Of a DNA stretch of 64,000 nucleotides, positions 3,283-62,857 are shown one piece after another (positions within the stretch are counted from its first letter, which is position 1; each line of letters starts with the position of its first letter). Source of the DNA: Dichotomocladium elegans. Taxonomy: Eukaryota > Mucoromycota > Mucoromycetes > Mucorales > Lichtheimiaceae. Below the pieces are notes generated by a model that had not been told where the DNA came from, ran no database searches, and saw only the letters and a list, made by a program, of their open reading frames with translations. A program made the translations under genes and the position numbers. The DNA lies in assembly GCA_025716815.1 (NCBI GenBank), contig JAIXMN010000001.1, positions 2,046,001 through 2,110,000 on the forward strand, in the 5' to 3' direction.

Positions 3283-5688
3283 CTATGCATCTCGTTCGTA
3301 AAACAGCATATACGCTTCGCTAGACAACACTGTCTGGAGATCTACTTCTTCTATATGCTCGTCACTGCATCGCCAAAAGACAGACGGCTCAGGCACGTAT
3401 CCATCCTCATGCGGCCGCCGCACCTCATGTCCTGTCGGCAATTTCTTGCGTCTATAGGTGATGAAGTGCCCTGATTCGTGACCTCCATAATGCACAATCA
3501 CTGCGTTCAGACGATATGGGATAGTCCGCACGACAGGCACCGAGAGGGATGGCAGAGCATTGCGAATCAGACGATGATGGTCTTCGTCCTTAGATCCCAA
3601 CGCTACGCTCAGGCCATCACGACCGTGTACAAAACGGTGACCAGCCGCCATGTTTCGGAGATAAACAAGGCTGGTGCGACTGGTACGTGCTTGCTGCTGC
3701 GAGATTGGGGCAGGAGGGGCGCTAAGTGACGCCGAAGGGTCTGCAGTATTGAGGAATCCATTGGTAGTGTAAGGAGCAAGGTCAAGGACCTCTGGGAATC
3801 GGACATCGCAGTGGTTCTTCTGAACGACACCACTAGGGTGATAGATTGAGCGGGAGAGATGGAAGCAAAGCGATTTCGGTGGGTTAGCGAACATAGTTTG
3901 CTTAGTCGTCGCTGAAGTGCTTTTGGGTGCCACCAGTGGAATCCCAGGCTACGTAAGGTGTATGTCTCTCGTTTAGAATCCACATCTACGTTGTTTGGCG
4001 GAGCTGCTTTGATTACACGTACCAGAGGTGCCTCCACGTTGTACTTTAGGGCATCTCGTAATACCTGGATCTTGCCATTGTGTTCAATTTGCTCTTCCGG
4101 ACTGGCCTTCGCGAGCTTAGGTTGCTCGTTTATTAAAGCCTCTAGAGTAGCATTGAGGCTGCATTTACGGCAGCGAAAATCCGTGAGTATATCGACCTTA
4201 GTATAGGTTTCGATACATTTTTGTAATGTACAACTCGGCTATGCAGATGTTACATTTCCGAGTTAGCGGAGCTTGCAAGTTATCCGCATCATACACTCAT
4301 ACCGTTTGAGGGACAGTGAGAGAGATATTATCGAAGGTATTATGGCGGATAGGTGCCTAGATTAACCATGGAGAGATGGTAAGCTTCGTCTTTATAACCC
4401 AATCCCATATTTTTCTCTCGGATGTCGCTTACGGTGTAACCGCATCTCATGCAACTGATCTTGGTCGCCGCCAGGCCGGTGAATGGATTTCTCGGACGAC
4501 GCGGTCTGTGTCGCAAGCGGCCCCCGACCGAGGAGACGGAGAATGAGCTCCACATGGAACCTGCTGTACCAAAAGATGACAAGGAGGAAGTCTCAAAATT
4601 GTCTAATGCTACGGGTGACGCACACCCAGAATCCTGTATAACGTGAAAGTTAAAAAAGAGAAAACCCGGGTGGCTGTGTCCTCTCGGTTCCTTGCCTGAT
4701 CGGTTGTCAACTTGCGAAGCGCACCAGCATCCAAAAGGGAAGATGGGTCTTGCCTGTACTGGATTTCCTCCTCTGAGGAGAGTGCGTTTGAAATGATTTG
4801 GAAGAGCTCCTGAGCATCCTGATACCATGAAATCCATTCAATACGGAACACAGGACAAAGAAAGAGCGAGCTGAGATTTGCGCAGCAGGCAATTGTTACC
4901 TGTTGTTCGCGATTGATCGTTCCGTTAGTTTTCCGTTCTAATGCGCCGATAAACTCAGTCGGGGCCATTCGCCGTGGTTGGGTCAGAGGTTGGTTGAGTT
5001 CTGTCAAATGAGAAGGTTGCGTGCGTGAGCATAAAAAGCAGAAAGAGGAGTGAATCCTTTTTACTTGCGTTCCAGCGTGTTGTACAGCGCATACGCCACA
5101 GACTGTAAAACATAGTCGTTTGTTGTCAACTCGAGCCGTTCAAGTTCATCGCCATGCTCATCCACGCGTTCGGCCTTCGTTCATTTTTTAGGACAAACAA
5201 TGAGTGGGCAGGAATGTAAAAAAAGGAGATGGCTTTACCAGATAGGACCGAAGTGTAGCAAGTGTGGCGAGTGCCTAATGACGCAAATTAAGACCGTTCA
5301 TCGTGTAAGCCATTAGAGAAATTGGTCGTTGACATGGCTTCCTTTTTAGTTCTGTTTCTTTTAAACGTCTTCAGCCAAGTAACTTGCCTGGAGCACCGAG
5401 TTGATGAAACAAGAATTTCCCGTATTGATCAGACCGGTAATGTATTTTGCATCGCGCTCTTTTTGTTAAAGTTTAGTAAAGCAAAAAAAAAACCCAGAGT
5501 TTCCTCCTCACAAACGTTTCCCCAGCTCTCACTTGTCAATCCTTACCTTTCATGATTCTTGACTTGATTCGTTTCCGTCGTTTTCTTATTTCGGAACTGC
5601 CGCTCGAATATGCTGCATAACTAGACGCAGCAAGAGCCAAGCCTGTAAGCGCAGCTAAGGCTGGGAGCTGGTAATTGGACGATGCCAT
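3283..5688 (-). CDS. USP30/Ubp1-like membrane-anchored deubiquitinase
   Basis: A ubiquitin-specific cysteine protease (peptidase C19) of about 582 aa. Exons: 5547-5688, 5388-5458, 5239-5274, 5069-5174, 4900-5000, 4696-4818, 4433-4633, 4303-4356, 3953-4238, 3283-3911; all phases agree. The Cys box GLINTGNSCFINSVLQ puts the nucleophile at about C64. The His box HYGGHESGHFITYRR gives about H522, followed by SSEAYMLFYER. Zinc-ribbon pairs CMRC and CRKC sit between them. Residues 7-28 form an Ala/Leu-rich membrane segment followed by a basic stretch, as in mitochondrial USP30 and yeast Ubp1, so mitochondrial outer membrane or ER anchoring is likely. Three of nine introns have GC donors (5275-5387, 5001-5068, 4634-4695). 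The last intron (3912-3952) would be only 41 nt with a weak GTAGCC donor and is the least certain junction. Family call firm; USP30 orthology inferred. Confidence 0.9.
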
Positions 5689-6231
5689 AGGTGCTTATTA
5701 ATTGGCTCGCACCAGGTGAAAGAGCACAAGAGGAGGAAAGGCAGTGAAAAAGAGAGACAGAGAGATAGAGAAAAGAGAGGGAACGGAGCTCGCCGGAACT
5801 CCGTGCTTGTGACAATCCCTTTTTGCCCGCCCGTTTCTCTTATATTATTATTTATTTTTTTTTGCCCACGAAGAGTGAGGCAGGTTGCGGTGCCACATTC
5901 CTCGTCCTCTTCCCTGTTAAATAGCAGGAGACAATCCATGTTAACTGATCACCCGCCCCCGTACACAGGACAATGATGTTTGTTGCTGCTGTCGGCCGTA
6001 CATGTACATTATTGTCTTTTCCACTCGAAGAGAAAAGGCGCATCTGCATAGATAATGCGTATCGTCCTTGCTCCCCCACATCCATCTGCCCACATGGATG
6101 ATCTTCTCTCTATTTTTTATCACTGCAAGGGGTACATTGCCAATTTGGCATCGATCAACCTCGCCTTTTGTACACTGATACAGCATGTGCTGCTGTTGCA
6201 AACGGCGCTGCATATCTCAATAATATGAGAT
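5689..6231. other. intergenic spacer, USP promoter / Prp43 3' flank
   Basis: About 540 bp between the start of the USP gene and the stop of the Prp43 gene, both on the minus strand. It contains a purine-rich run (5716-5780) and a T-rich stretch (5838-5862). No convincing coding sequence or RNA gene was seen. Confidence 0.4.
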
Positions 6232-8967
<2,736 letters not shown>

Positions 8968-9162: not shown

Positions 9163-11092
9163 TTAGTCCATTTCTTCTGATTTGAGTGAATCCGTTCCAG
9201 ATGTGTGCTTCTTATATTGACATTGTACGCGGAAATGGTCATCCTCTTGTTTCAACAATTCCACCGCGGGCCTTGCAGTTATTGTCGGGACGGTAGGTGC
9301 CACCTGAGGCTGAATAGGTCGGTAAGAAGGGGGTGGTAAGGCTGGCAACTGCGATTGCCTTTGTGCTGTTCCTTTCTTCGCAGTCAGCGATGGAGGCGGT
9401 CGTTTGTTAGCGCTACCCATTATCTCCAAATTGGTCAGCTTCTTTTGGGCAGCTGCGGCAACGCCTGCCGCAGTGCGCTGATGCATCTCACCAAACTTTT
9501 GCCAGACATAATTGATACAATTCTCTGCGCCGGGCAGATCCTGAATCATCTTGGCAACAGTTGCGTGGGTGAAACCGTAGTAGTCAGGACCGGATGCTAT
9601 AAGGTATTCGTTTAGCGGATCTCCATATGAGTCTGATTCCTCCCTCGACTTGCCCGAGTTTGAGTGTTCTCTATTGCGGATTTCATTCGCTCGTTTTACA
9701 ATTGCAGTCCACACGCCTGTTGCTGAGTTCGCGATAATGGGTTGGTCAGGATAATCCTCGGCTACTACACGGAACTAGTATAAGAGTGTATGTGATATAA
9801 GCATCGAATCAATTTAATGAGCTTCTCTTTTTTCGCACTTACGCGAGGACCCTGCTCGCCGTTCTCCTCAACTGAACATGTGTAGATTGTGTTGGCATTT
9901 GGATTGACCATGCTCAAGTATGTTCGGCTCACTTTAAACCCCGGAGGCCAAATATATCGATCGTTATGGTATGTTGGTAAAGGAACAACCCGCCCAAGGG
10001 AGTGTACCGTCAAGATACCGACACGTGCAGGTAAAATATATTCGCCCGAGTCGGGATCTTTCTCCAGGGGTTGAACACGGCGCATCTTGGGCTCAACAGG
10101 ACCACGACGCATCCGTTTGGGACGCGAAGAAGGGACCATCCTCCCATCCTGGTACATAATTTCTACTTTCGGGCCCCCGGAGATTCTACTCGTGTTGGAC
10201 GATACCGGATCGGAAGACGCGGTTAGATGATCATTTTGGGATGAGACCGGATTTGGAGAAAATGCAGAAGGATGATGATGACCGCGGGGGATTTGATGGT
10301 GTGGAAGCGATGGTTGGGCTGAAGATGAAGAGGACGGAGGTAGAGCATCTGTTGCTATCGCTTTTCTTGGATGGGATTGGGGCTGAGGCTCTTGCCAGTG
10401 ACAAGAAGTGTGCGGTAATTGAACAGGCAGGGGAGGTGAAGGGGCTAAAGAATAGAAATGAGGACATGTTTTTAATAGTCTGGATATGCTGGTCTTTGAT
10501 AACATGGGCACAACTACCTCTATCAACGACGTTATCTGACCCATAGGTCGCATCGTCGTTGGTATCCATCAAGTTTGAAATCGTCGGTAAGATGGTAATA
10601 GTAGCATTGTCAGAAGACTTAGTACACACTTCCTTCGGTGGGGGTGGCGGCGTCAATGTGGGCTTTCGATGTTCTGCTGAATCTTCAAAGGCGTGCAGCT
10701 GATCGTATTTACAGATTTTGTCGAGGAGGATGCTATTTTGTATAAAATACAGGTGCCCTTGATTAACGCATCCCCCTTTTTGCAGAATTTATGCTTCTCC
10801 TTCCCCCCTTAATGCAGAAAAAAAGGTGCTTACTCGCGTTCCTTTGCCAAACGTCTAAGCCGCTTTTTGGCCTCGTTAAGGTCGTTCAGGAGCACTTCAT
10901 TTTGCTATCAGTAATGATATACACCCAAACAAGCAGCCGCATTTACGAATGAGTGAGCACTTTGGCTTAAACCATGGGGACAGGAAGCTCTCTGCGAACC
11001 TCTACAATTTCGAGAAATCGCCTCTTGAGACGCTTGTACTTGATGTTCGAAATGGGTGGAAGGCGTCTTTCTGTGCAAACTACTCTCGCCAT
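9163..11092 (-). CDS. FYRN/FYRC-domain nuclear protein (TBRG1-like)
   Basis: Exons about 10973-11092 (donor uncertain, alternatively ending at 11000), 10834-10904, 10518-10732, 9843-10444 and 9163-9774; roughly 520-540 aa. The N-terminal basic/coiled segment (ISNIKYKRLKRRF, then NEAKKRLRRLAKER) resembles the TBRG1 N-terminus. A Pro/Ser/His-rich linker follows. The FYRN module is ILPARVGILTVHSLGRVV through CSVEENGEQGPR. The FYRC module has FRVVAEDYPDQPI, VWTAIVKRANEI, SGPDYYGFTHATVAKMI and LPGAENCINYVWQKF. FY-rich modules form one fold found in chromatin-associated proteins (MLL, JARID, TBRG1). The closest architecture is TBRG1, a nuclear growth regulator in animals; the role in fungi is unknown to me. 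Inside the FYRC region, 9597-9653 looks like a 57-nt GC-AG intron that is also open in frame, so two isoforms are possible. Confidence 0.82.
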
Positions 11093-12700: not shown

Positions 12701-12714
12701 ACATAAAGAAATGA

Positions 12715-13955
12715 CTACTTAAATCGGTAGTATGCCCGCTTGAAGCTAGCTGCGTTGGCATAGCGAGCAACTGCATGTGACAGCGAGGGATCTTTTGTGG
12801 CAGCAGTGTAACAGGCACTCCAATTCATCCTGCCTTTGAATTCCTTTTTGAACTTGCCAACGAAGCTCAAAATCGCCTGTTTATCAAAGTCGGATTCAGG
12901 CATCCTTGCTAGATCATTGCACACCAGGTCATCAACATCAGGTTCCTCCATAGGAGTAACACAATCATCCTGGTTGGATAACAGATGATCAATTTTTCGA
13001 GCCATTTGAGAGGTGTATTCCATTCCAGCTGATGCATAACGGATAGCCTGGCCAGGATTCAAGCGGGCATATTTGACGATCTTCTCAAATTGGTCATGAG
13101 TGTCGACGCATACTCGTTTCAGTGTATCCAGCCGACTCGCTTCCTGTTTGCCATCTTGAGTAGCAAGTTCCATACACAATTTATAGAGCAATTTGATATG
13201 TTCATCGTCCCATCGTGAGTTGCCAATGATGCTTGGTTCACCAGAAATCAAAAAATGGGCAACAGCGGCAAGCGGTGGTAGTGATTCGTCTGCACTGACC
13301 AAATCCATGATGCTATCCTTCGTCAGCAAATAAAAATGGCTAGATACAAGCGAGCATTCCGTTTCCAGCATATAGGGCCACTGTTGCGTTGCCTTAAACT
13401 TTTCCATCAAAAGAAACCGGTCCATCTCCTTAAGGCAAAACACCAAGACAACAGGAAGAATAGTGTATCGTTTGTAAACCTCCATGCAATACGAGAACGC
13501 ACGATGAATGAAGTCCAAGTCCACCTTCGCCTGGAATTCCAATATAATAGGTGGGAGGTTACTTGGCGTTTTGGAAATATAGATTACGTCGCATTCTTTG
13601 TCTCGGAATGTCGTTGGTGCAGCAATATATCTTCCACTGGGTGCGTTTACGAGAGCTGCAGTCACCAAGTTAATGAATTCAGGTTGCAATGCAAGAAGAC
13701 GGCTCATTCTATCTGCACCAGGTTTATATTGCTTGGGCAATTTGAATTCCAACAAAGCGGTATCAACTAAAAAGAATATGAATTAAAACTAATCCCCATG
13801 TACAATGAAAAAACCTTTCCGCCACATGGACATGTGTAAATTGAATTGACAGCAAATGCTGCTTCGGCAAGACAGTACGTTATCCTCCACCTTTAAGCCG
13901 CCTCTGCTAGTAATCTCTCGGAAGCGATGGAACACTTACTCTCGTTCATTGTCAT
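12715..13955 (-). CDS. Rpn-like PD-(D/E)XK nuclease of the mobile element, intact copy
   Basis: Exon 2 (12715-13766) is a 351-codon open frame with no ATG at its beginning. A 16-nt first exon (13940-13955, encoding MTMNE plus one base) followed by GTAAGT joins it in phase, giving about 355 aa and a natural start. The fold signature is CDVIYISKTPSNLPPIILEF followed by Q: Asp about 65, Glu about 82 and Gln about 84. This is the D...ExQ core of PD-(D/E)XK enzymes such as bacterial Rpn (recombination-promoting nuclease/putative transposase) proteins. A long alpha-helical C-terminus follows, with no known DNA-binding motif seen. It lies inside the inverted arm and is transcribed outward, away from the MULE transposase. 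It probably nicks or cuts DNA to help mobility or repair-based copying; that role is inference. The second copy at 19055-20514 is broken. Confidence 0.75.
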
Positions 13956-13978
13956 GGAAACGACAAAAGGGACGAAAA

Positions 13979-19054: not shown

Positions 19055-20514
19055 ATGAACGAGAGTAAGTGTTCCATCGCTTCCAAAAGATTACTAGCAT
19101 AGGCGACTTACAGGCAGAGAATAACGTACATGTCCATGTGGCGGAAAGGTTTTTTCATTGTACATGTGATCAGTTTTAACTCATATTCTTTTTAGTTGAT
19201 ACAGATTTGTTGGAATTCAATTGCCCAACAATATAAACCTGGTGCAGATAGAATGAGCCGTCTTCTTGCATTGCAACCAGAATTCATTAACTTGGTGACT
19301 GCAGCTCTCGTAAATTATCCCAGTGGAAGATATATTGCTGCACCAACAACATTCCGAGACCAAGAATGCGACGTAATGTATATTTCCAAAACGCAAAGTA
19401 ACTTCCCACCTATGATATTGGAATTCCAGGCGGAGGTGGACTTGGACTATATTCACCGTGCGTTCTCGTACTGCATGGAGATCTACAAACGATACACTAT
19501 TTTTCCTGTTGTCTTGATGTGTAGCAGTAGCTACAGAGACGGGTCACTATCGACCGACGACCAAGATATTACAAGGATAACGATCACGATCAAGACCGCA
19601 TCTGCGACGACGATATTATGTACCACACTCACTTTCCCTGTACGATGATCCTATATGTATACCACTGCTATTACCCCCGCTAATGTCTACTATAGAAACA
19701 GGGATGCCCTGTGACATCGGGTATCCGCACCTTGTATTGTTATAATCATCGTTCTTCTCGTCACGTCGCGCTTCCTCCACGCTGTATATCAGACGCTCTT
19801 CGTAAGTCCTCGCACAACGGTGTCTGTACTGTTACATGGTGTTCCATCTTAAGGAGATGGATCAGTTTCTTTTGATGGAACAGTTTACGGCGACGCAACA
19901 GCGGTCCTATATGCTGGAAACGGAATGCTCGCTTGTATCTAGCCATTTTTATTTGCTGACGAAAGATAGCATCATGGATTTGGTCAGTGCGGACGAACCA
20001 CTACCACCTCTTGCTGCTGTTGCCCATTTTTTGATTTCTGGTGAACCAAGCATCATTGGCAACTCACGATGAGACGATGAGCATATCAAAATGTTCTATC
20101 AATTGTGTATGGCACTTGCTACTCAAGATGGCAAACAGGAAGCGAGCCGGCTGGATACACTGAAACGAGTATGCGTTGACACTCACGACCAATTTGAGAA
20201 GATCGTCAAATCTGCCCGCTTGAATCCTGGCCGGGCTATCCGTTATGCATCAGCTGGAATGGAATACGCCTCTCAAATGGCTCGAAAAATTGATCATTTG
20301 TTATCCAACGAGGATGATTGTGGTACTCCTATGGAGGAGCCTGATGCCGATGACCTGGCGTGCAATGATCCAGCAAGGATGCCTGAATCCGACTTTGATA
20401 AACAGGCTATTTTGGGCTTCGTTGGCTGCAACAAAAGATCCCTCGCTGTCACATGCAGTCGCTCGCTATGTCGACGCAGTTAGCTTCAAGCGGGCATACT
20501 ACCGGTTTAAGTAG
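19055..20514 (+). pseudogene. Rpn-like nuclease, broken copy in right arm
   Basis: Counterpart of the intact gene at 12715-13955. It keeps the short first exon (ATGAACGAGA|GTAAGT at 19055) and CDVMYISKTQSNFPPMILEF with the catalytic residues. It is broken by a 1-bp loss near 19220, insertion of M2 after the VVL codons (19520-19836), a Trp-to-stop change near 20070 and a deletion of about 50 bp near 20425 that shifts the frame. The last codons (KRAYYRFK) are still recognisable. It cannot encode a full nuclease. Confidence 0.85.
19520..19836. repeat. MITE-like repeat M2, inserted in the nuclease pseudogene
   Basis: Inverted copy of M1 (16910-17226). Comparison with the intact left-arm nuclease shows it splits the codons between VVL and KEMD. 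That makes it an insertion, not part of the ancestral gene. Flanking TG on each side could be a short target duplication, but this is not proven. Confidence 0.72.
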
Positions 20515-25204: not shown

Positions 25205-26176
25205 ATGAACACATTCGGTATTGACAGCTTACGTCCGAATCGACTGACTATCACTCATTCGTCTTCTCTCCTTAGCGGCAGCATTCCGAACAGCCCTGCG
25301 CCCTCTGTCTCATTCGAATCCTTTGAGGCCATTCCAACAAGTCAAGAGGTAGAAGCAGACAAACAAACAACGCGAGAAGAAAACAGAGAGTGTCTCCAGA
25401 GCAAAGTGCATTGACATAATGAATCATCAGCTTTTCTTCCGGTTCACGCCGTCTTGCAGAGCAACCCCAAGCGTCCCGCCCTGACATTGGAGCGTCTTCA
25501 CTTTTCGATAATGTCGCTGTTGAGGCCGCCGCAGCCACCGAAGGTGTTGCCGAGAAGGCGGCTGTCAAAGAAGTAAGGTTTCACACACACATACAAAAAT
25601 CTAGGCTGTAACGTGAGCTAATGGATGGTCCTATACAACCTTTGTTTTATGTGCATTTAATAGTATAGATGGGCATCTGCCAATATGCCGACCAGCCCAC
25701 GGAAGCTCAATATGCTCGCTCGCCAAATCCGCAACATGCCTGTCGACGAGGCGATCAAGCAGATGGAATTCTCGCCGAAACGCACCGCCAAAAAGATCTT
25801 ACATAACCTCGCATTTGCGCGCAAACTTGCCAAGGAGCAACATGGCATGGAGAATCCTATTGTTGGTATGTGAAATCACAGACAAAAAGAAGGAGTCCAC
25901 TGAAGAGTGTCTTTTATTCTGTTAGCCCAAGCATGGGTAGGCAAAGGCCGATATCTCCAGCGCGTTAAGCCCCACGGCCGAGGTCAGTTCGGTATCATGC
26001 ACCACAAGCAAGCACACATCAAATTCCTGCTCAAGGATTCGGCAGAGGCTGCATTGGAGACAGCCGATCAGTCTGCCCGGCGAAACATCCGGGGATGGAA
26101 GGAGTCTAAGAAAGTGTGGACCCCGTTGAAGGAGGATAAGCCAATCTATAATCCAAAGGCGTTTTACAACTGGTAA
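25205..26176 (+). CDS. MRPL22: mitochondrial ribosomal protein uL22m (MRPL22)
   Basis: A component of the mitochondrial large ribosomal subunit near the exit tunnel. Exons 25205-25400 (probable), 25460-25572, 25664-25865 and 25926-26176 give 253 aa. The uL22 core is MPTSPRKLNMLARQIRNMPV, then KQMEFSPKRTAKKIL, then VGKGRYLQRVKPHGRGQFGI. This matches the loop that lines the tunnel. The first about 100 residues have Ser/Arg-rich character compatible with a mitochondrial presequence and linker. The first intron is best modelled as 25401-25459 with a GC donor (CAGA|GCAAAG), which gives a 59-nt intron and correct phase. An alternative is a GTCAAG donor at 25342. Exons 3-4 are certain, exon 1-2 joining less so. 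Confidence 0.9.
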
Positions 26177-26445: not shown

Positions 26446-29044
26446 ATGGATTCCGATTCATCGTATTCAAACCTTACGCAGCATTACAGTTTACCAACAC
26501 CTGTCTCGCAATCAACCGCGTTATATTACCGCAACCAACAGGCATCAAGAAATTCAAACAACGCATCGACGCATGGATCATCACCATCCCCTAACCTTCC
26601 GGGCGTCAGCGATTTATCAAGTATCAAAACAGATTTGGAGCGGGTCTTGTCGCGTGCAGAGATGCGATTGAGACAGTTGAAAAAGGACATTAACAACCTT
26701 GACAAGAATGTCAAGATTCACAACAATGACGGTAAACCTAGCATGCTGATTGCATTCTACAGACACGCCATATGCAAGCCAATTAATCAATTCAACTATG
26801 GAAACAATGGCAGAATCAGACGATGATAACAAACATGGGGGCGGTGTCTCAGGCAAGAACGTCAGTGCCATGTTAGAAAAGATGCGGATAAAGAGGGAAC
26901 AAAGTAAGCATCAAGTCGATATGAAAAAACAGAGAACATTGGACCTTTTGCTAAGACGGTACTTTGGGATGGATCGTATAGATGATGACGTTTACAGTAA
27001 AGTCCAGTCTGACAGACATGCGTAAGTGAATGAGGAAGGATGAGGAGAAAGGGGGGAGATAGAGTGAATGTGTGTGTACGTGCATATGGATGAGTGATGG
27101 AAGAAAACGCGGATGTGGCATAAAGTATGCGAGTCCCTATTGCGAAAAGGCCGGCATTAAGACAAACATGGTCAAATAGAGCATTGGAAGTATTACGACA
27201 GAGGCGAAAACGAGATGATAGTTCCGAAGACGATCTTGTTAGCAATTGTAAGTCATGCAAATGGAAAAAGCTTGTCAACAAATTGTCTGGATCTTATTAG
27301 ACCAATTTATGTCTATCTAGCGACTACCCGAAGTGAATCACCTCTTGGCATTGTCAAGTCTAAGAAGCTTGAAAACATGGCTCCCATCACGTCACGTAGT
27401 GCTTCCCCGCCGCCCGCTCCATCCGGGAAACATCATCTACCCAAGCCGCATGAGGTAAGTAGAGAATTCGGTCTCTCACTATGTATATGTTAATGATGCA
27501 TATCCCTCTCTTTATAATAGACAAGCCAACACAAAAAGAAGAAGACATCCAAAGCTATGTCGCGTGCAAATGGTGAGCACCAGGGCAAGCATCCCAAAGC
27601 GAAATCACAGCAAAGAATAGAGAACGACGTCGATTTCGTGCGTGTCAAGCCTAAAGATCAGGTTCCAATTCTAACATTTTGGAGTGGCATGGAGCCTTAC
27701 TTTCGCCCGTTGACAGAAGAGGATCGGAAATTCCTTCTGGAAAAGGCAAGTGAATTGGATGCCGGGAAAGAATGATTGACTGAGACTTCGCGGGTTGGTC
27801 TTCGTTAATGCAGGGTGATGATGTCAAGCCATATTTGATCCCTCCTCTTGGACGTCACTATCGTGAGGTATGGGCTGAACAGGCTGCCGAGAGCGGTCTT
27901 CCGTCCTCCTCATCATCCACATCTACCACTCGAGGACGGTCGAATTCACCTGCACCTATAAGCAATAATGGCAACGGGGTCACCGGTCGAGCCCCGCATC
28001 CGGACGCACAGGCCGCATCTGAAACAGCAGAGACTGCCGCTACGAAGCAAGAACCCGTTCGCTACTTGCGCTCCACTGAAAATTTTACCGATGACTTCCT
28101 ACTGACAAACGACCTAAGTTGTGGGAGTCTTGCGGAACGCTTGCTGAGTAGCTTGGTAATTGAGGAGCTGGTAGATGCAGAAGAGCTCAGAATGATAGCC
28201 AAGGAGGAGGATGAAGAGAATGAAGAGGGTGATCCAATGGATTTAGACGCTTCATCTACGTCATCATTTCCAGGGAGAACTATCACAGAATTGACGTCTG
28301 AACAGCCCGAGGAGATTGTTGAGTTTGAGGAACGGCTGAAGCGAGAGTTGAGATACGCGGGTCTCTTTGGCGATGATGACGTACGTATTATACAATTCAT
28401 ACATGCTGGCGGTGTTGCGGTGGACACATGGAGAAATGACTGATGAATTACGTTACAGATTGATTGGAATGCAAGAGAGGACGATGAAATATGCGCGGAG
28501 CTGCGAAGGCTGGGACGCGAGCTTGAGGAGCAAGTGAAAATAAACGAATTTCGGAAGTCGCGGCTCTTGGAAGTGGTTGATCAGCAGCTTCAGTTCGAGC
28601 AATACAGGAATGTGCTGGACACGTACGACCAACAGGTAGAACAGTGTTATGCGAAACGATTTGTAAGTATTCTGCAGCAGAGATGGATGAGAAGGGAAGC
28701 GCCTGATGTTTTATATTCTCCAGAGAGTACAAAAGTCTAAGAAACGCAAGGCAACCGCGCCCAAGGCAGTCCTGTCAGAGAATGCTGTTAATGCGATGGA
28801 GAAACGGCGGCTGTGGAAGACCGAACTTGGACCTCTTTTTGAGAGCAAGAATGTGGCGATACCTACAAAATCAGTCTACAGTACGGATGAGGCTGAGGAA
28901 AACAACGGGAACAACGATGCTGTGGTCCCAACTTCCGACTCCTCTTCGTCGGTTCCAGAGTCGAACACACCTGCTACTGCTGCAGTTGCAACCAATTCCG
29001 GCGTCGCTATCGCAGCCACCACCGCCACTGCTCAAGGATCATGA
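26446..29044 (+). CDS. NGG1: SAGA/ADA complex adaptor Ada3/TADA3 (Ngg1)
   Basis: Ada3 holds the Gcn5-Ada2 histone acetyltransferase module together in SAGA. Exons 26446-26731, 26814-27021, 27150-27247, 27321-27454, 27521-27745, 27814-28380, 28459-28662 and 28724-29044 give about 680 aa. The diagnostic C-terminal half has VPILTFWSGMEPYFRPLTEE, then YLIPPLGRHYREVW, then SLAERLLSSLVIEELV. The IDWNAREDDEICAELRRLGR helix and a final basic exon follow (QKSKKRKATAPK, then AMEKRRLWKTELGPLF). The N-terminal coiled segment (RAEMRLRQLKKDINNLDKN) also fits the family. Intron 5 (27746-27813) has a GC donor (AAG|GCAAGT). Intron 1 is ambiguous: a 31-nt alternative acceptor at 26762 exists, but the 82-nt version is preferred. 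Confidence 0.93.
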
Positions 29045-38711: not shown

Positions 38712-41506
38712 TTATATCGGGCTGGCGGGAGGTGTTTCCTGGGAGGAGGCGACTGTGACGGATGACCAGAAACGACCATAGAAACTGGCTCGTTTCGAGG
38801 CCTTGGTTACATCATCACTTCTTCGCTTGGCGAACTTCGGCGTTTGGACCGGACCGGCTGCGGTACTCATAAAAGATGCTCTCCTGTTGCTCGTACTGGT
38901 GGCTGGCCCAAACGTTTCTAGCTCTGCAATGTGCAATTTTGCGTCTGCAAGCATTTGCTCAAGCTCATGACATCGGGATTCCATGGCTGACGTCTTCTTG
39001 GTGTTATCCGATCCAGGAGTTGTTCGGCCTTTTTTGGTGTTGGCAGGCGTGGCTGCCTTCAGCGTGGGTGTTTTGGATTTTGCGACCGAGTCGCGCTGTA
39101 GCTGCTGCCGCTTATGTTGCTCCTGTTCAAGCTCCTCCATCCTGTTCTTCATATTGACCATCTTTTCAATCAGCCCTGTCTGTGCTTCCTTGGCCATCAG
39201 GTTTTGATGTCGGAGTTCCTCGTTATCTTGCTGGAGCTCAAAGTTAAGTGCTTTGGCTTTGGCAAGCTCGGCCCGAAGCTCATCCATGCCTGGTTGTTCG
39301 TTGAGACCCTGGATCGTGATCCTGAGTGCATCCCGTTCAGCCTCGACATCCATCTTGTCCATCCGGACTTGGACAAATTCTTGCTTGAGTTGGATGTGCT
39401 CGTTCTGAATCTGCGAGAGCGCAAGCAAGAGATCCTCAATCTGTTGATGAAGCATCTGCGTATCGTGGTTTGAGGGCGGTGTTGGGGTTGAGCAGCTCGA
39501 TGCGGTTGATGATGTCGCTGTAGTGGGAGACGTTGTTGATGTTGCCGCAGAAGTGGGCGAGCTGGTTGCTGTGGTCGAAGATTCATCGGAGCTCGACGAC
39601 CGTTTGGAGAGCCATCCAGCGGACTCACGCTTTTTCTTTCTATCCGAGTTCTTTGACCAAAAGTTGAAGCGGACTGCGAGGACCTGCTCTGTCTGCTTCT
39701 GCTCCTGTTCAACCTCCTTAAGATAGAGTTCTGCGAGATGATCCATCTTCTCGCGGGTGATCAGGCCACTGAGCTCCATCGCGTCGGTGATCATCAAGCC
39801 GGCATCGTCGTTATACACAATGTGAAGCTTGGAAGTAACATAGTCGAGGATGTCCTCAAATTCGGATAGCTCCAGAAGCTGTTTCTCGGAACGCTTGAGC
39901 ATAGCAATGGCCACGCGCATGATCGTTTCTGCAGCGCCCTCCGCAAAAATGATATCGTAGATGCGCATTACCATGTGAATCGGGAAAGCGTATGCAAAAA
40001 GAGTAAGGAACCATTGAGACGCGTACATTGGCGAGTGCACCGCATGATTTACAAGGTGGTCCGAGAGTTCCGGAAGTATCTGCGAGAATAGGCTCGTGAA
40101 CTGGTACAAGCGCAGCTGAAGCCCTTCCATGTTTAGTGTGAACATGGTGCGCATGTCATATGTCTCCATCAACCGCACGAACACACAAAATGCTTGTTGT
40201 TCCGGCATCTATAAACATAGATAGAAAGGGAAGGAACCTCTTGTGAGTCTTGCCCCTCTATCTTTTTCTTTTTTTTGTTACGTAGTGGAGCCGTTGATAC
40301 TTGCGTTCATCAGCAAGGGCCCAACGAGGAAAGCAAGACCTTGACAGTAGCCAACGTGCGAATCGTACAAACTGTAGGCTTTGAGCACACGTTCCAGCGC
40401 TTGCTGGCCATCGCCTCCTTCTTTTTTGAACATGTCGACGTTAGGGAAAGTGCGGGCGAGGTCACGCTGGATGATGCGCTCATAGGGTGTGTGTTCCGCA
40501 ATCAGTTGGCCATACACGGTCTCAAGATTCAGCGACGCGGACTGTGACATGGCTTGCCAAATCACGCCACGCACCTTGCTCGGGATGCCTGCCTTGAGCT
40601 TTGCCGAGAGCAGGTGGGGCAGTTTTGTTGCTAGCTCACCAAAGTCCTCGGTCAGTGCGGTCCAGAATTCCCAGTCAATATCCTCGGACGAGTCGCTCAC
40701 TAAACTCTGCATAGTTGACAGGTGAGCCTTGAGCTCATTCGACTGAATGCAGACTGATTTTGGATCTTCGTCGAGCATGGCATTCTGTTTCTCCACTTGG
40801 GCGAGGATAAAATCGATCGAGTCCTAAAGGGGAAAAAATACATATATGTATATATATATATAACATAAGCATATGTCCCTCCGGTCGGTCTACTGATTTA
40901 TTTCTTCCACCCTTCTTTCCCCCCTCTCTCTTCTTCTACCTGAGGAGGAAGATTCGCATTCTCTTCTTCGAGTCGAGGCAAAAGCTGTACATCCGAAGCT
41001 GCTTTAACGACATTTCCTGCACCGGACGCGGTACGACGACGATGCGCGGTCATGCTGGGATTCCGGCTTGGGGTGGGGCCGACACCAAAGCTGGTAGTAC
41101 GCAGTCGGCGCTGCTGCTGAAACGGAGTGCTCTTGGAACGAGATAAATTCATCTCCATTGTTGTTACCGGAGCTTGGGTTGTTGTTTCTATCGGTGGATT
41201 GCTCTGTTCCTTATGAACAGGGACAGGGGCAGGGGCAGGGACGGTGATCGCTTCTCGCTGTTGAAGGGCGTTGACAAGTCTCGAAGGTGAAGGAGGCGGA
41301 AGTTGGGATTCATCATAGGGTGGTGGCTGTTGTTGCTGTTGCGGTGGAGGCATATCAAAGGAAGAAAGAGAAGGAAAAGAAGAAGGGAAGGACGGACCGC
41401 ATACAACCGATACCACTTTTTTTAAACGCACCCTCTGCGGATCCAAATATGGCCAAGGACCCATCTTCCTGCGTAACAGCGTCTGGTCTCCAAATGTGTC
41501 ATTCAT
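38712..41506 (-). CDS. TBC-domain Rab GTPase-activating protein (Gyp5/EVI5-like)
   Basis: A GAP that accelerates GTP hydrolysis on Rab GTPases at secretory membranes. Exons 40940-41506, 40305-40823 and 38712-40208 give 860 aa. The TBC domain starts at GIPSKVRGVIWQ (about 268-279). The catalytic dual fingers are IQRDLAR (Arg about 313) and YCQG (Gln about 350). FCVFVRLM, LFAYAFP and RIYDIIFAEG follow. Residues 1-190 are Pro/Gln-rich and disordered. The C-terminal third is coiled coil (ELRAELAKAKALNFELQQ) ending in a Ser/Thr-rich tail, as in Gyp5/EVI5-type GAPs. Intron 2 (40209-40304) has a GC donor (AAC|GCAAGT) exactly inside the conserved LLMN-MPEQQAF. Rab1/Ypt1 encoded at 57 kb in this window is a plausible substrate, by family knowledge only. 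Confidence 0.93.
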
Positions 41507-42840: not shown

Positions 42841-44104
42841 TTATGTATGCAACCAGTAAAGAAGAATAAGTATTATACAAGTAGATATTACACCGGCCAT
42901 AATTAATGTATCGCGCTTTCTCCGGGTGTTGATGCGGCTAATGAGACTATTGATCCCAGGTATACGGCCTAACCGAAAAAAAAAGAATATCCACATTTTA
43001 AATGCCAATCCACGCGGTAAGTTCCACCTTTGTCAAAATAAAAACTTATAGCTTACTGGCGATTCCGCCGACGCGGCTATTGATGCTGCGCAATGCTCGA
43101 CCTTGGCTCGATATATCCTGTCGGGTCGCGTAGGCTTGTCTTTTAGAGAAAAAGAAAGAAAGAGAGAGTACAGAGAGAAAGGATCAACCCTCTAGGATTT
43201 CCATCCATACATCCTTCATATACATATATGTATTGCTTACTCGAGAATTGTATCGGTCATACGGTGCGAACTTTCAATCCGGTTTCGTTCGGACAAATAA
43301 TAGTCTGATCCGCCTTCATTTGTAGCATTAAAAATCCTACCCGATGCAATTAGCGCGGATCACTTGATTGCCACTTCAACCCATACCGAATCTCATCTTT
43401 CACAGAATTCATCAGATTTGCCTTCTCTTGTGCCGCTTTGATGTTGGCCTATAAAAAAAATAAACATACGTGCGCGTGTCAGCCGATCTACCAAACTGTA
43501 CCAATAACACATCTCCTTTGCCTTCACACGCCGGAATTCCTTGTTATAGTCCGTCAAAATATCCTTGTGTCTGTCCAGTTGATGTACCATGGACGGGTTC
43601 GTTGGTGTAGCACTTGGACGGTCCAGGACCTCTTGCATCGATGTGATAACCGTCTGAAGCTGAAAATGTTATATACGAATCCATGCAAAAGAAAGGAGGA
43701 AAACGGACAAAACACACAGACATATGTATATCAGATAGTGATCAAAACGAAACGCCCCGCCCTCATATCTCGTTTCCCTTTACCTTGCGCAACAATTCCT
43801 CCGTCTCCAGTTCTTGACTAGGCTTGCCAATGCCATTCAACGGTATACCCCCGTCGGGACTATCGCCATTGCTTCCATTGCCACCCTGCAAAGATGAAGA
43901 TACCGAAGCTCCCAGCTTGGAAAGAGATGCTAACTTGAGTTCAATTTCGTTCTCCACTTGGCGCGCCTGGCGCCGTAACTGATCCCACGATAAAGGAGGT
44001 AGCGATGGCGGCGTCGAAAGGTCGCCGTCATCGTCAGATGATGTCATCATGGAGGGTGATGAGGGCATGGTTATTGCTACACTGCTCGGTGCTGTGCGAT
44101 GCAT
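42841..44104 (-). CDS. GOS1: Golgi SNARE Gos1/GOSR1 (GS28)
   Basis: A Qb-SNARE for intra-Golgi and ER-Golgi fusion. Exons 43784-44104, 43522-43659, 43387-43448, 43241-43336, 43057-43139 and 42841-42968 give 275 aa (human GOS28 250). The N-terminal regulatory helices include WDQLRRQARQVENEIELKL. The RHKDILTDYNKEFRRVKANI joint (GOSR1 pattern RHRDIL...EFHKTKAN) follows. The SNARE motif runs RIESSHRMTDTILEQAYATR to SSQGRALRSINSRV with the zero-layer Gln. The C-terminal tail anchor is about LIMAGVISTCIILILLYWLH. Intron 2 (43449-43521) has a GC donor (AAG|GCAAAG). An internal ATG (MPSSPS) could also serve as start. It belongs to the same traffic theme as Rab1, the TBC GAP and Erd2 in this window. 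Confidence 0.94.
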
Positions 44105-44249: not shown

Positions 44250-45160
44250 GTACAGGAGATAAAAACAATGGCGTATAAAAATACGAAAAGAACGACGTAT
44301 CAATAGGTAAAAACATTTCATTCATGAATTAAATATATTACTTCTTCACTACACCCGTGAAACTTACAACAACCGTTCTTCCAACAGAAAAGGGCTTATC
44401 TCAAGGGCTGTGGTTATCCTGAGTGCGCCAGCGATAGCTAACGCGGAAATCATTGGTTGGGCTCATGGCCGTCTCGATCGGCCTGAGCGTGCACGTCGTG
44501 ACCTCACGTTCTGTTGCTCTGATTCAGGTGAGCCTGGCCTTCCGCGAGCTGCAGACACTTGTGCAGTACTGCCTCTCCGAAATCTTGTTGGGATGATGCC
44601 ATCTTCCCGAAGACCACGGAAGATATGCTTCATGTTAAGAGCCGCCGCCAGATCCGATTCCATAATCTTGGTTAACGAACGCCCTCTGCCATGCCTGCTG
44701 TACAGTCTTGATTTGATTATCTATTTATTAGAAAATTCTGTCTACTAAGCCTATTGTAGACTTCCAATGCCCTATTACTTGCAAGGTTGCTGGTTCGATA
44801 GACAAAACAGCTCTTATTTGAACAGTTAGAGAATAGGATAATGTACCTAACCTCTACCCTATGATAGCCGAAAGGGGTCACAACCATCCAGTCTGGGTTA
44901 CTCCAACAAACAACGATAGTCAGTTTGCCAGTGGCATTTAGGCCCGCCAGAACTCAACGGTAAATCGAATGCTGACTGTATCCTCTCAATTCGGGACATG
45001 CGCAGAAACAAACGCAGACTTGCTAATGCAAGATACACTAGGTAGGTATACAATGTGAGAACAGACGGTTTGAGGAGAGTACATTTTCTCTTTGGTGGCA
45101 TGGTCGATAGATTTAGGTCAGCTATTGCTCGCCAATTGCCGTCGTAGTTAAAAAAAAGAT
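44250..45160. repeat. repeat R1, copy A (Tc1-derived, non-autonomous)
   Basis: About 900 bp repeated in the same orientation and with few differences at 63029-63916. On the minus strand, 44950-45160 reads FNYDGNWRAIADL and later KCTLLKPSVL, then RIERIQSAF. These align to the N-terminal nucleotide sequence of the neighbouring Tc1/mariner pseudogene, partly in another frame. It carries no intact gene. A G/C-richer block at 44400-44660 has a 66-codon minus frame (MESDLAAALNMKHIFRGLRE) whose function is unknown. Confidence 0.8.
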
Positions 45161-57112: not shown

Positions 57113-58158
57113 ATGACCGCCGAATAGTAAGTTTTGTTTGGTTGACAGCCTAATGGACCACATGAGAGCCGTGGATGCTTTAGCACCCTTGACCACAACT
57201 GTGCAATTCTTTTTTTTTTTTGCTAATGAACCCGCCCCTGTCTCTCTCTAGCGATTACTTATTCAAGCTCCTGCTCATTGGTGATTCAGGGGTTGGAAAG
57301 TCCTGTTTGCTCCTCCGATTTGCAGATGACACTTACACCGAAAGCTATATTTCGACGATTGGAGTTGACTTTGTACGTCTCATTCCGGAACCCACCCGGG
57401 GTGGGTGGAAGGGCATGACGTACTTGCCAATACTCAATCACCCTTTTTTATTTTAGAAAATCCGGACGGTGCAGATCCAGGGACAAACGGTCAAACTACA
57501 AATTGCAAGTCGTGAAAAGAGCGGAAGAGGAGGAGGGAACCGGGTTGCGTCTGCGCGTGTATCTAACAATAAAAAAAATCGGTTAACTTGTCCCCCATCT
57601 CTTCCTTCATGTCAACCAGTGGGATACTGCCGGACAGGAACGATTTCGTACGATCACGGCATCCTATTACCGGGGCGCGCACGGGATCATTATTGTGTAC
57701 GACGTGACGGATCAGGGGAGCTTCAACAACTTGAAGATGTGGCTTCGTGAGATTGAGAAGTTCACGTCCGCGGACAGTAACGTGAGCAAGTTGGTTGTGG
57801 GTAATAAGAATGATCTGGCCGACCTCAAGGTCGTGGACTACACAACAGCCAAGGTAAAAAGAGCCCGGTGTGGTGGTGGAGAGAGCTCCACTCTCCATCC
57901 CGCAAGACACATATACCCACTCATGCACATAAAAATATGCAGAATCTCTGCGATAGCCTCTCGATACCTCTCCTTGAGACGTCGGCGAAGGACTCGGTGA
58001 ATGTTGAACAGGCATTTATCGAGATAGCTAAGCAGATCAAGGATCGGGTGGGAAACAAGGTCATGGGTGTTGCCACGTCCCCACCATTACGACCCGGCGT
58101 CCGAGTGACGCAGGGCACATCATTGAACGTACCGCCGTCGTCAAGCGGTTGTTGCTAA
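57113..58158 (+). CDS. YPT1: Rab1/Ypt1 small GTPase
   Basis: A Rab GTPase for ER-to-Golgi traffic. Exons 57113-57126 (14 nt, MTAE plus two bases), 57252-57372, 57457-57504, 57620-57853 and 57943-58158 give 210 aa. G1 is GDSGVGKS (15-22); the effector region is [17 protein letters not shown]3 is WDTAGQERF (62-70); G4 is NKND; G5 is ETSAK. The C-terminal SSSGCC is the double-geranylgeranylation site. [13 protein letters not shown] and the RabF motifs favour Rab1/Ypt1 over Rab8/Sec4. Intron 3 (57505-57619) has a GC donor (ATT|GCAAGT); only that joint restores KLQI-WDTAG. Confidence 0.95.
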
Positions 58159-58360
58159 AAAAGAATTCCAAAGTGTACGATGCATACCCATTCTCCCTCT
58201 CCTACAATATACAAATTTATAAATATATATCCATTAGGATCGAATATTTCAGCATGAAAGTCATTTTGCATGAAAGTTGCCGGAGAAAAAAAAAAGAATG
58301 CACTTGACTACCCATGGGAACGCCTTTTCTTGTTTCTTGTTTATAACATAGATATTCTCC

Positions 58361-59406
58361 ATGAATCTCTTTAGACTGGGTGGTGATGTGATGCATTTGG
58401 CATCCATTTTTATTCTTTTGCTTAAAATCAGGCAATCGCGATCGTGCGCAGGTAAGTTCACGCTCATTGTTGCACGAGTTCAGTTTTTCTTTTTCTGGGG
58501 ATAGAGGAAAGGAAGTTCATGGTATTGATGCGATGGGCATCGTTTAGGCATTTCTTTCAAGACCCAATTGCTGTATTTAATTGTCTTTGCGAGTCGCTAC
58601 CTTGACATGTTCTTCACGTTTCATTCTGGGTACAACAGCTGCATGAAGATCTTTTTCATTGCGTCGTCGACATACGTCGTGTACCTCATGGCAGGAAAGT
58701 TCCATGCGACGTATGACGCCACGTTCGACACGTTTCGCATTGAGTATCTCTTGGTTCCAGCCGCTGTTCTGGCATTGATATTTCCATACAAGTATTCGGT
58801 GCTTGAGGTAAATCACGACATGGCAGCTCCCCCCCCAAACCATCCCCCCCTCAACTCTCACAAAAGAATAAACCAATCCCGGGGCGCGCGGGTGTGCGGA
58901 CTGGGTTGGTTGGTGCTTGGCTGTCGTAGATTCTTTGGGCGTTCTCAATCTGGTTGGAATCGGTTGCGATCTTACCGCAGTTATTCATGCTGCAGCGCAC
59001 AGGCGAGGCAGACACGATCACCACCCATTATATTTTTGCTCTCGGGGCCTATCGTGGCCTGTACCTCGTCAACTGGATCTACCGCTACATCACCGAGCCC
59101 AGATACTCGGATTGGATTGCCTGGGTGGCAGGCTTATTACAGACGGCCTTGTATAGCGACTTCTTCTATGTCTATTACACAAGGTATATATATATATATA
59201 AGTGGGGAAATAGTTTGTGGAAGGTACACTTACACGAGGACTGCGTCTGCGAACAGGGTGCTTAAGGGCCGCAAGTTTGAACTGCCAAGGTATGGGTGGT
59301 GGGGGTGGTGGGGGTTCATGACTCAAACCAATGCATGATAACTTATTAAGTCTCCTTCTCCCCATTTATGATGATGATGATGATGATATGTAGGCCCAGT
59401 ACCTAA
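58361..59406 (+). CDS. ERD2: KDEL receptor (ER lumen protein retaining receptor) Erd2
   Basis: A seven-helix Golgi receptor that returns HDEL/KDEL proteins to the ER. Exons 58361-58451, 58548-58807, 58930-59183, 59257-59289 and 59394-59406 give 216 aa (family 212-219). Hallmarks: [113 protein letters not shown] and [18 protein letters not shown]. The final 13-nt coding exon gives the end RPST. If the last intron is retained, the protein ends in a Trp/Gly-rich extension 15 residues after FELPR. The stop is only 42 bp from the convergent stop of NSRP1. Confidence 0.95.
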
Positions 59407-59448
59407 GAATGGCATTAATCGTACTTTTACACACATGAAAAGAAAATT

Positions 59449-60854
59449 TTATTTTCCTTGGTCGCCCTGCTCTTGTTCCAGCTTTTGCTTCTTTCTTGCC
59501 AAATATCGTTCTCTTGCGCTCATCGCCGCATCCTCCGTCGTTCGTTTCGCAGTTGCTTTCTCTGCCAACTCCTTTTGCTTTTCCTCCTCTGCCTTCTTCT
59601 CCTTTTCGCGCGTCTCGAGCATTTGCTGCTCGATTTCGCGGCTGTATCGCTCCCGCTCGCTGCTGTCGCCGCCGCCGCGCCGCTTCCGTTCGTATTCCTC
59701 AATCTTCTTGCGTTTGTATTCATCGTATTCGCGCTGTCGCTCTTGCGCCCGTTCATCCGCCAATGACCCGAGCGAGCCAAACTTGGGCTTCACGTTCAGG
59801 CCCGCGTTCAGAAGCTGGCGGCGGTCGACGATCTCGTTACTCGCATTCAACATGACACTCTTGCCCTCGCGTTCGGCTTGTTTGGCCAGTTCAATATCCA
59901 GCACCACCTTTTTGCTCGAGGCGCTATCTGCAGCTGCAGCTGCTGAGGTTGTGGCCTTGTTGCCCTTTTGATTTTCATGTTGCTGCAGCAGAGCCATCCG
60001 CTCTTCACTCTTTTTGTCCAGGAGGGTTTTGTAGAATGAGGTCATTTTCTTCTTCTTGTTGGCCTCCTCTTTGGGTTAGAAACAAATGTTGGACATCATC
60101 GCCTGTATACGCGCGTATATATATATGTGTGTGTGTGTGTGTCTTTTGTTTCTGGTTTACCTTCTCGCTTTCTTTCTTCTTCTTCGATACGCTTCAACTC
60201 CTCCTTCTGTTTCTTAAATCTAGATCAAACCGGGAGATTACATTGTGTACTGTAAGGAGCAATAGAAGGCTCTCTTCTCTCTCTCTCTTACTTACGCTTC
60301 TGTCATAAACACCTCCTTGTCGGCATACATTTCGCCCTCTGCCTCACGCTCTCGTGCAATCTTCTTTTCCTCGGCCATCAACCGGTCCTTTTTTCGTATT
60401 TCTGCCATCTCCAGCAAGTTCTGCATGTACTTTGGCTGGAGTGCGCATGTGCGGAGGAAAGGGTTAACAAAAACGTCTGCTTCCGCAACCCTTCCCTCTC
60501 TCCCGGGCCCTTTTTTCCCCCCTCATTTGCCTTTTTCGTGTCCGGCCCTTTGGCAGCCTCTTTCTTCAAACGCTCAGCTTCCTTGAGATCATCGTAGACG
60601 GCATCGTAATCAAAAATATGCGCATCCTCTTCTAATGCTTTGGCATGCTGCTCGGCCACCTTTTTGGTCATTCGGCTGCTTTGGGTAAGCTGCTGATTCA
60701 CATTGCTGCGATGCTGCTGTTGTTTTTTGCTGCTTCCGTCATTCTGCTGTTGTACCTCATCCTCTCCTTCATCATCAGACCGATCAAACGCATTTGACCG
60801 ACTGAACATGGGCCTTGGTTTAGCCTGTTTCCTGACATTTAATCCAAACTTCAT
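59449..60854 (-). CDS. NSRP1: NSRP1/CCDC55-like nuclear speckle splicing regulatory protein
   Basis: Exons 60531-60854, 60296-60435, 60161-60219 and 59449-60068 give 380 aa. The N-terminus MKFGLNVRKQAKPRPMF, then SNAFDRSDDE, and the block IFDYDAVYDDLKEAERLKKE, then PKYMQNLLEMAEIRKKDR, then REAEGEMYADKEVFMTEAFK form the DUF2040/NSRP1 signature. FYKTLLDKK completes the core. The C-terminal half is highly charged coiled coil (ERQREYDEYKRKKIEEYERK). Animal NSRP1 binds RNA and modulates alternative splice-site choice; a similar nuclear role here is inference. Intron 1 (60436-60530) has a GC donor (AAG|GCAAAT). Confidence 0.93.
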
Positions 60855-61040
60855 TTTTTTTGGGCTAGATGTATTAGAAAAAAATATCACAGGCAGGTGG
60901 GGGTGGGGAGAACGAATTAATTTTTAATGCATAACCGTCCCGCTTCCCCGCCTCCTCCTCCCCCCCCCAACCACCACAGGCGAAATTATGTTTGTACAGA
61001 TAGAAGAAAATGCAATAGACAAGGTATCTGGTTGAAGGAA

Positions 61041-62857
61041 TTAAGCGATTTTGTTTTGTGCAATGCTAAGAATCATCCGTTTCCGGATAAGGCTCATGTC
61101 GTCCTGAGAGAAATTAAAAGAGTGGCGCCGTGACAAGCGTTCTGCAAACGTGCATGCAAAGACGCCACAGTCGGACATGTTGCGTTGCTGAGGAATGTCC
61201 TGATAAATTGACGTGATCAGCGCAATGTGTGCGATCCTAAAATAGACTTCTTTCTTCTTCTACCTTTGGTGAACATGTTTTCCAATCGGACAAGTCAACT
61301 GGCTGCTTCTTTTTGTCTTCGTGTTCAGCTGCGAGGTATTCTTTCAGCAACTGAAAAAGAAGAAAAAGGAATGAATGAAAAAAACATAGTAACGGGTAAG
61401 TTGGAACGTACCATGAGCGTATTGTCATGGGAGCCGCCCAATGAATCATATACTTGAATGGTGTGAGCTTTCATGTCAATTACACCTAGAGTCCAATGGT
61501 AGGAATAGTTGATGGGTATAAAAACGATATCCTTGGAGAAGATATCGACACGCTTGGTCCATCGGCGCACTTTGGCGTATCCCGAATCACGTAGGGTCGA
61601 GCAAAAGAATGTGTTGAAGCAGTGGACGGATGGCAATTGCGAATTGTTCTCTGCGCGCTCGACAATCAACTGCATGTAGAAATTGATGATCTATATTGCG
61701 CATTCGACGTTGATTACTATCGGTTGTACCCTTAATATGTAGTATATATAACTTGCCTCGTCATTGAGCCAGGTTTCGGGTGCAAGCTTGTAGATATCTT
61801 TGTATTCGACAATGGCTGTCTTGTTTTGCGCAATTTCTCCTGATTGTCCCCGACGCATCAGCTGCTTCACCTAGTTTTTCATTCACCAATCAGTTTCTCT
61901 CTCACTCGGTGTCCGGCAATAGCCTATATATATATATATATAAACTTACCAGTGCTTCTTCCTCGTCTGTCAAGGGCGACAGCGCAGGACTCTTGACGAA
62001 CTCGGTTGCCTTGAAAAGCGCATCAAAGTCATATTTCGGCGGTCCGAGGGTTAATTCTGCAAGCCGAATGCCGCGCGCCCGGCTATCAATGCTTCCTTGA
62101 TAACTTTCGGGCGTACGGCTCGAAGTCCGTCCATGAATCGTGAGAGACTCCAGCCCGTCTAGCAGAGAATCGACGATAGACGCTCCTTCTTCTGCTGCTG
62201 CTGCTATTATCTCCTCGCTCTGTGCACCTGCAACTCTTGCCGGCGATGATCCCGAAGTCAATGAATCGTTCTCATCGCGGTCGCTGCTGTTGTTGCTGCT
62301 GCTGCTGCTGCAAATGCTGATGGTCTCTGTCTTGTTGTCTCCGTATCGATTTAAATACATTGCTTGACAGAGGCGGCGGACATGCGTTGGATTGTAAAAA
62401 TCAGCGTTGGAATAGCAGTCTACTACAATGACATGTCAGTGATCATTCCCCTACCCGCTCGGAGAGGCGTAGTGCGGCAAACATGTTATAAAATACACTG
62501 CGATCGTTTATCGTTTGCTTACTTGAGCCGGAAGTGATCGAATTAAATTCTGCAGCAAAAAAAAAAATAAAACAAAAAATACAAGCGTTAATGCCGGCGA
62601 ATGGACGCCATTAAAATATACAGCGGAGACAACATGTATGTCATTTATGTATGTCTCTCTGCATTACCTCTTTTGTTCGCGAGGACTACAGGCCGGTGTT
62701 AAAATATAGAACGAGGGTTGAGTAATGAGCATTTTGACGCAGCCATAGAGCAACCAGGAGCGCAATTCAACTCACTTTCGTGTCGGTAACACTTCCGACT
62801 TTTCACCTTTGTGGGCATTGTAAATTCTAACGGAAGTGGCCGTGCAAGGTGCTTCAT
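61041..62857 (-). CDS. ULP1: Ulp1/SENP-type SUMO protease
   Basis: A C48 cysteine protease that matures SUMO and removes it from proteins. Exons 62776-62857, 62668-62685 (18 nt), 62523-62549 (27 nt), 61950-62422, 61757-61870, 61412-61690, 61264-61350 and 61041-61199 give about 412 aa. The catalytic domain has ETWLNDEIINFYMQLI, FIPINYSYHWTLGVID (His about 303), VYDSLGG (Asp about 320), DIPQQRNMSDCGVFACTF (Gln about 365, Cys about 371). The N-terminal 190 residues are Ser-rich and probably regulatory. The last C-terminal residues RMILSIAQNKIA end on TAA. Intron 5 (61691-61756) has a GC donor (GAG|GCAAGT) between NDE and IIN. The short upstream exons are phase-consistent but less certain than the catalytic part. 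The acceptor at 62423 has a 3-nt alternative. Confidence 0.92.

Follow-up and report, generated by a model that had tools for sequence, protein, structure and literature searches.

U2-type introns with a GC in place of the GT donor (GC-AG introns) constitute about 1% of introns in animals, plants and fungi, and for fungi a mean share of 1.009% has been published (PMC7072748). The present analysis concerns such introns in Dichotomocladium elegans (Mucorales), whose assembly comprises 39.4 Mb in 122 contigs, and centres on a window, that is, the whole stretch of 64,000 nucleotides (nt) analysed (C1:2046001-2110000), in which an initial annotation had placed twelve of them. Judged from the sequence, roughly one in twenty introns of D. 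elegans appears to start with GC, nearly always within an otherwise strong donor, and these are most probably introns of the ordinary U2 type in which a GT donor has turned into GC, a change tolerated where pairing with U1 and U6 small nuclear RNA (snRNA) is otherwise strong. They resemble U2-type GC-AG introns elsewhere in the GC donor, the AG acceptor, the strong remaining donor and the presence of GT at homologous introns, whereas they differ in frequency, which outside the window is about fivefold that of the average fungus and inside it is higher still.

Raised shares of GC-AG introns have been described in several lineages. In the algae Aureococcus anophagefferens, Micromonas pusilla and Chlorella sp. 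they reach 39.6%, 22.2% and 7.7%, respectively; these algae have the highest genomic G+C content of 61 species, the putative U1 RNAs of Aureococcus and Micromonas carry the 5' end AUACUUACCUG, and the richness in GC-AG introns was termed an enigma by the authors (PMC3033335). D. elegans is similar in combining a share well above 1% with a canonical U1 5' end, but its share of 4.9% outside the window lies below that of Chlorella and the G+C content of the window is about 46%, ranging from 43 to 50% across 4-kb steps. The nematode Globodera rostochiensis likewise has a raised, manually validated share within a group at about 1%, though it is an animal, while in Heterorhabditis bacteriophora a share of 8.87% fell to 0.79% after re-annotation (both PMC5906903, the former as a mention); the artefact thus inflated the share in Heterorhabditis, whereas the deposited annotation of D. 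elegans errs in the opposite direction in the two genes checked. Among fungi, the MYB genes of Ganoderma lucidum and G. sinense contain 5 and 6 GC-AG introns (PMC7407476), some at shared positions, yet within a single gene family of a basidiomycete. Another non-GT donor class occurring in bulk is represented by the GA-AG introns of Eurytemora affinis, for which a C-to-U variant of U1 was proposed (PMC7072748); D. elegans differs in that its donors are GC, not GA, and that no such variant was found among its three U1 genes. Among the papers listed in a search of one literature library that covered Mucor, Lichtheimia, Rhizopus, Mucorales and Mucoromycota, none described Mucorales as rich in GC-AG introns, and introns of Dichotomocladium gave no match there.

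GC-AG introns in the window and across the genome

Junctions were tested by comparing spliced gene models with deposited relatives, homologs of solved structure, Pfam domains and paralogs. All twelve annotated intervals indeed start with GC and end with AG, eight of them having GCAAGT as donor (Table 1), and as introns they were confirmed in part: for ten, homology extends across the junction and supports the splice, the GOS1-like one is backed by frame and ab initio call only, its protein having no Pfam family and PDB matches only at E 0.5 or worse, while the one in MRPL22 was refuted. In the latter, half of the interval is coding: the deposited protein, P0121, reads ...SFSSGSRRLAEQPQ... where the distal half of the supposed intron lies, six relatives aligned with it agree, and the sequence provides GT introns at 25218-25275 and 25349-25430. 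The models of USP (window 3283-5687; nine introns, three of them GC) and Prp43 (6 introns) are open. The full TADA3 model contains three stops, which stem from wrong boundaries away from the tested junction, and its second match, yeast Ada3, has insertions around that junction.

Two further candidate readings of these sites were rejected. A donor 4 nt downstream, namely the GT inside GCAAGT, would shift the frame with the same acceptor, and the +3 to +6 consensus is absent at most such sites. Retention of the TBRG1-like intron, suspected from its 57 nt without a stop, is countered by relatives aligned over the junction.

Table 1. Intervals of the window annotated as GC-AG introns (a slash marks the splice junction)
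Feature	Positions	Strand	Donor	Evidence
USP, intron 1	5275..5387	-	CAG/GCAAGT...TTAG	splice restores FINSVLQ/ALATL
USP, intron 2	5001..5068	-	AAC/GCAAGT	YNTLEQLN is the relatives' form of the motif
USP, intron 3	4634..4695	-	CAG/GCAAGG	TDQ/DSGCASPVALDN agrees with Lichtheimia hyalospora P0002
Prp43	8199..8265	-	GAG/GCAAGT	yeast Prp43 aligned ungapped over junction
TBRG1-like (FYR domain)	9597..9653	-	CGG/GCAAGT	relatives without insert; FYRC score
MRPL22, refuted	25401..25459	+		25431-25459 is exon
TADA3	27746..27813	+	AAG/GCAAGT	Chaetomium Ada3 ungapped at junction
TBC-domain gene	40209..40304	-	AAC/GCAAGT	RabGAP-TBC (Pfam) 200.4 bits across junction
GOS1-like	43449..43521	-	AAG/GCAAAG	frame restored; ab initio call
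Rab1	57505..57619	+	ATT/GCAAGT	GTAAGT in paralogs L002 and L003, same codon and phase
NSRP1	60436..60530	-	AAG/GCAAAT	NSRP1_N (Pfam) 127.4 bits across junction
ULP1	61691..61756	-	GAG/GCAAGT	WLNDE/IINFYM against SENP1, no gap

With about 78 introns in the window, a by-eye count taken over from the initial annotation, the eleven remaining GC introns amount to about 14%; the share of roughly 15% given there cannot be extrapolated to the genome, as outside the window it is about 5%. A more sensitive ab initio run over the window returned 69 introns including 10 with GC, namely nine of the eleven upheld and the wrong one in MRPL22.

For counting beyond the window, conserved families located irrespective of donor type were adopted because stricter runs of the gene model looked less clear. 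The Ras-family sample comprised 43 loci, that is, 40 gene places out of 149 matches plus Rab1 and two paralogs, with candidate models selected by a profile derived from GT-only models; its loci outside the window yielded GC at 8 of 156 introns. Eight loci of mitochondrial carriers contributed 2 of 31, both in L072 and one of them near an edge and weak. Ab initio prediction contributed 5 of 122 (4 of 89 in the C1 flanks, 0 of 21 in C2 and 1 of 12 in C30), as against 6 of 94 at a stricter setting; four of these five junctions are spanned by a Pfam domain (THF dehydrogenase, BAR, GH9 and BD-FAE), and at the fifth a RhoGEF match ends beside it. Overall, 15 of 309 introns sampled outside the window of this one genome have a GC donor (4.9%; 95% interval 2.7-7.9%), about fivefold the fungal mean (P = 9e-7 at 1.009%), and the annotated excess over a baseline near 1% is thereby upheld. 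The window lies above this level in turn (11 of 78 at an expected 4.85%, P = 0.0014), its share of about 14% being due in part to local clustering, with three such introns in one gene, and to its selection for GC introns.

The window also contains repeats. A near-identical open reading frame (RSSNRKGLISRAVVILSAPAIANAEIIGWAHG...) occurs at 44311-44748 and 63111-63527 and probably belongs to a repeat element, and two diverged copies of another (QYKPGADRMSRLLALQPEFINLVTAALVN...), one of them interrupted, lie at 12715-13782 and 19196-20483 and are probably transposon-derived.

Donor context, paralog positions and splicing components

GC and GT donors differ in the remainder of the donor sequence. 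Outside positions +1 and +2, matches to U1 amount to 5.45 of 7 for the GC donors of the window (n=11) and 5.30 for those of the Ras family (n=10, including Rab1 of the window), versus 3.87 (n=149) and 3.85 (n=176) for GT donors of the Ras family and the ab initio set, respectively. Moreover, of the Ras introns, 52 have AAG at positions +3 to +5, ten of these with GC, whereas GC is found in none of the 107 that lack AAG there (P = 7e-6). Both results support the proposal of the initial annotation that strong pairing elsewhere compensates for the +2 mismatch. Part of the AAG association could be a product of the calling procedure, whose GC flank model was learnt from 16 GC sites; the window sites had been picked without a flank model, and 9 of 11 carry AAG at +3 to +5. 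Intron lengths are similar, with a median of 73 nt for GC introns (21 entries, Rab1 counted twice) versus 79 nt.

In the Ras family, seven of the ten GC introns coincide in codon and phase with a GT intron of a paralog; for one, the sole counterpart is a doubtful call in L054, and two lack a partner. L053, L055 and L056 carry three different GC introns. At two of these positions the remaining two members have GT instead, although one such GT intron, the first of L056, is a doubtful call. As a separate observation on this family, the paralogs L023 (346-349) and L037 (242-245) show an apparent exon of 4 nt, ACAG, between two GT introns; it falls inside the motif PTIEDSYRKQ, which in L021 and L022 is interrupted by one intron only.

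Three U1 genes above the Rfam cut-off were found among 41 scored candidates, and all three have the canonical 5' end AUACUUACCUG, none showing a change facing +1 or +2. Inspection of the U1 5' end, as proposed in the initial annotation, hence makes an altered U1 an unlikely cause. Four U6 genes were found, with ACAGAGA, and thus a normal ACAGA box, in the single copy read. Strong pairing of +3 to +5 with this box marks one of two donor classes (PMC11732430), and the GC donors of D. elegans appear to resemble it. Regarding proteins, one LUC7 locus and two METTL16-type matches above the cut-off (56.4 and 23.9 bits) were detected, while U1-C was located neither by Pfam zf-U1 nor by a human fragment, which shows little in view of short exons.

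Deposited protein models compared with those of relatives

The initial annotation had predicted that standard gene finders would mis-call such genes, and the deposited D. elegans models are wrong at each of the four GC introns that were compared, namely the three of USP and that of the TBRG1-like gene, where proteins of relatives agree with the GC-spliced models. The GC-spliced USP model finds its best match in a deposited D. elegans protein, P0001, with 94% identity, from which it diverges at exactly the three GC introns. At intron 1, the model reads NSVLQ/ALATL as in Lichtheimia, Fennellomyces, Circinella and Radiomyces; VLQ is present in P0002-P0004 and P0008 and absent from P0001. At intron 2, P0001 carries an insertion absent from relatives, and at intron 3 a replaced stretch, a region in which relatives beyond Lichtheimia hyalospora differ in length. 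In the TBRG1-like gene (window 9163-10568), the deposited protein P0184 retains the 57-nt intron, whereas all eight relatives aligned, among 120 matches listed, read NS/ASGPDYYGF without an insert, and the FYRC domain score, 71.2 versus 63.7 bits, favours the GC splice. MRPL22 provides the contrast, its deposited protein P0121 being in line with relatives.

Among 44 USP homologs (P0002-P0045), four (P0005, P0025, P0026 and P0033) lose residues at intron 1 of USP much as P0001 does: VLQ is exactly missing in Syncephalastrum racemosum (P0005), Rhizopus microsporus and Sporodiniella umbellata, and Pilobolus umbonatus lacks four residues there. Such losses would follow if the donor were GC and the pipeline had moved to an upstream GT. 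Since P0006, P0028, P0036 and P0038 are otherwise irregular at this site and the next exon measures 36 nt only, the pattern is no more than a lead.

Proposed tolerance of a +2 mismatch and competing explanations

A T-to-C change at +2 would convert a GT into a GC donor, and the remaining donor, comprising +3 to +6 and usually a G at -1, would pair well with U1 and the ACAGA box of U6. This pairing is proposed to be what lets the major spliceosome tolerate a mismatch at +2. The introns lie in conserved proteins, depend on context and have GT counterparts at paralog positions, and the three U1 genes found are normal, as is the ACAGA box of the one U6 copy read. Splicing in the cell, the direction from GT to GC and the cause of a level above that of most fungi are inferred. 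Relaxed selection may underlie this level, as may a slight alteration of a protein of U1 or of the tri-snRNP; plain tolerance together with mutation may suffice. Of the interpretation in the initial annotation, compensatory pairing is supported, while relaxed +2 recognition, in the sense of an altered spliceosome, would be a hypothetical further element.

An unsupervised gene model in which the donor dinucleotide was left free initially converged on 40 GT and 6 GC donors alone, and with a corrected, more permissive score on 192 GT, 18 GC, 5 AA, 1 TC and 1 TT. In further runs, 14 other dinucleotides served as controls for GC. In profile-scored Ras models, allowing GC gave 9 GC introns (all GCAAG followed by T, C or G) beside 150 GT at a gain of 172.4 bits, whereas the 14 controls gave 1-3 introns each at 52.0-117.4 bits. 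The control introns fell mostly at L038, L048, L053 and L025, loci with a GC donor at which the control gain was lower, the exception being AC, which in L002, a paralog of Rab1 whose first exon the GT models missed, gained 57.7 bits. With GC models included in the profile, GC accounts for 10 of 159 introns, L033 being added with 1.6 bits.

Several results nevertheless count against tolerated GC donors as a distinct and frequent class. When each dinucleotide was made as good as GT, GC received 32 calls, within the 18-34 of the controls, and raw ab initio counts alone do not place GC above noise; in this run GC was distinguished by its score gain (153.9 versus 40.5-114.6 in the controls), and GCAAGT was present at 13 of the 32 GC calls. 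The anchored Ras run with the GC flank model yielded 6 GC calls versus 2-6 in the controls, and the corresponding ab initio run 12 versus 3-9, GC attaining the best total score in both, while an unrefined anchored run gave 4-6 GC in 72-75 introns along with noise calls elsewhere. In addition, the published 1% baseline, being derived from annotations, may undercount GC introns. AAG at +3 to +5 is lacking in two of the eleven window donors, in a carrier donor (GCAATG) and in a flank donor (GCATGT), and the flank model, resting on 16 sites, may suppress GC calls in weak context.

Among the competing explanations, active loosening of +2 recognition within this lineage, through an altered protein (U1-C, LUC7, Prp8 or SNRNP27) or an altered snRNA modification, survives best, yet is unlikely: the share exceeds the fungal mean despite a normal U1 and moderate G+C, but dependence on strong context looks like the general behaviour of GC-AG introns, and the presence of LUC7 and METTL16-type genes neither favours nor excludes such a change. 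A chance accumulation in the window, with the genome at the usual 1%, would accord with the window having been flagged for the trait and with its excess over the outside share, and is very improbable in view of the count outside it. Hardly any weight is given to an artefact of gene modelling, for which Heterorhabditis offers a precedent and MRPL22 demonstrates that such errors can occur in D. elegans, since at every intron checked the deposited models do without the GC splice and disagree with relatives, which fit it, and the dinucleotide controls in the Ras models oppose an artefact. Least credible is a U1 variant that pairs directly with GC donors through a different base opposite +2, given the three normal U1 genes, although a variant too diverged for Rfam or outside the 41 scored candidates may have escaped detection.

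If GC donors are tolerated as ordinary U2-type donors, D. elegans represents a fungus of moderate G+C content with normal U1 in which they are common enough to be studied as a class, and because they can be compared with GT at matching paralog positions, what takes the place of the +2 pair becomes directly testable. The findings further suggest repeated errors at GC introns in deposited proteins of D. elegans, perhaps also of other Mucorales, and an underestimate of GC-AG introns in surveys that rely on annotation of this kind. A raised share common to many Mucorales, hidden by pipelines that force GT donors, can be put forward as a tentative possibility; if true, the spliceosome of these Mucorales would accept C at +2 in about one in five donors of strong context.

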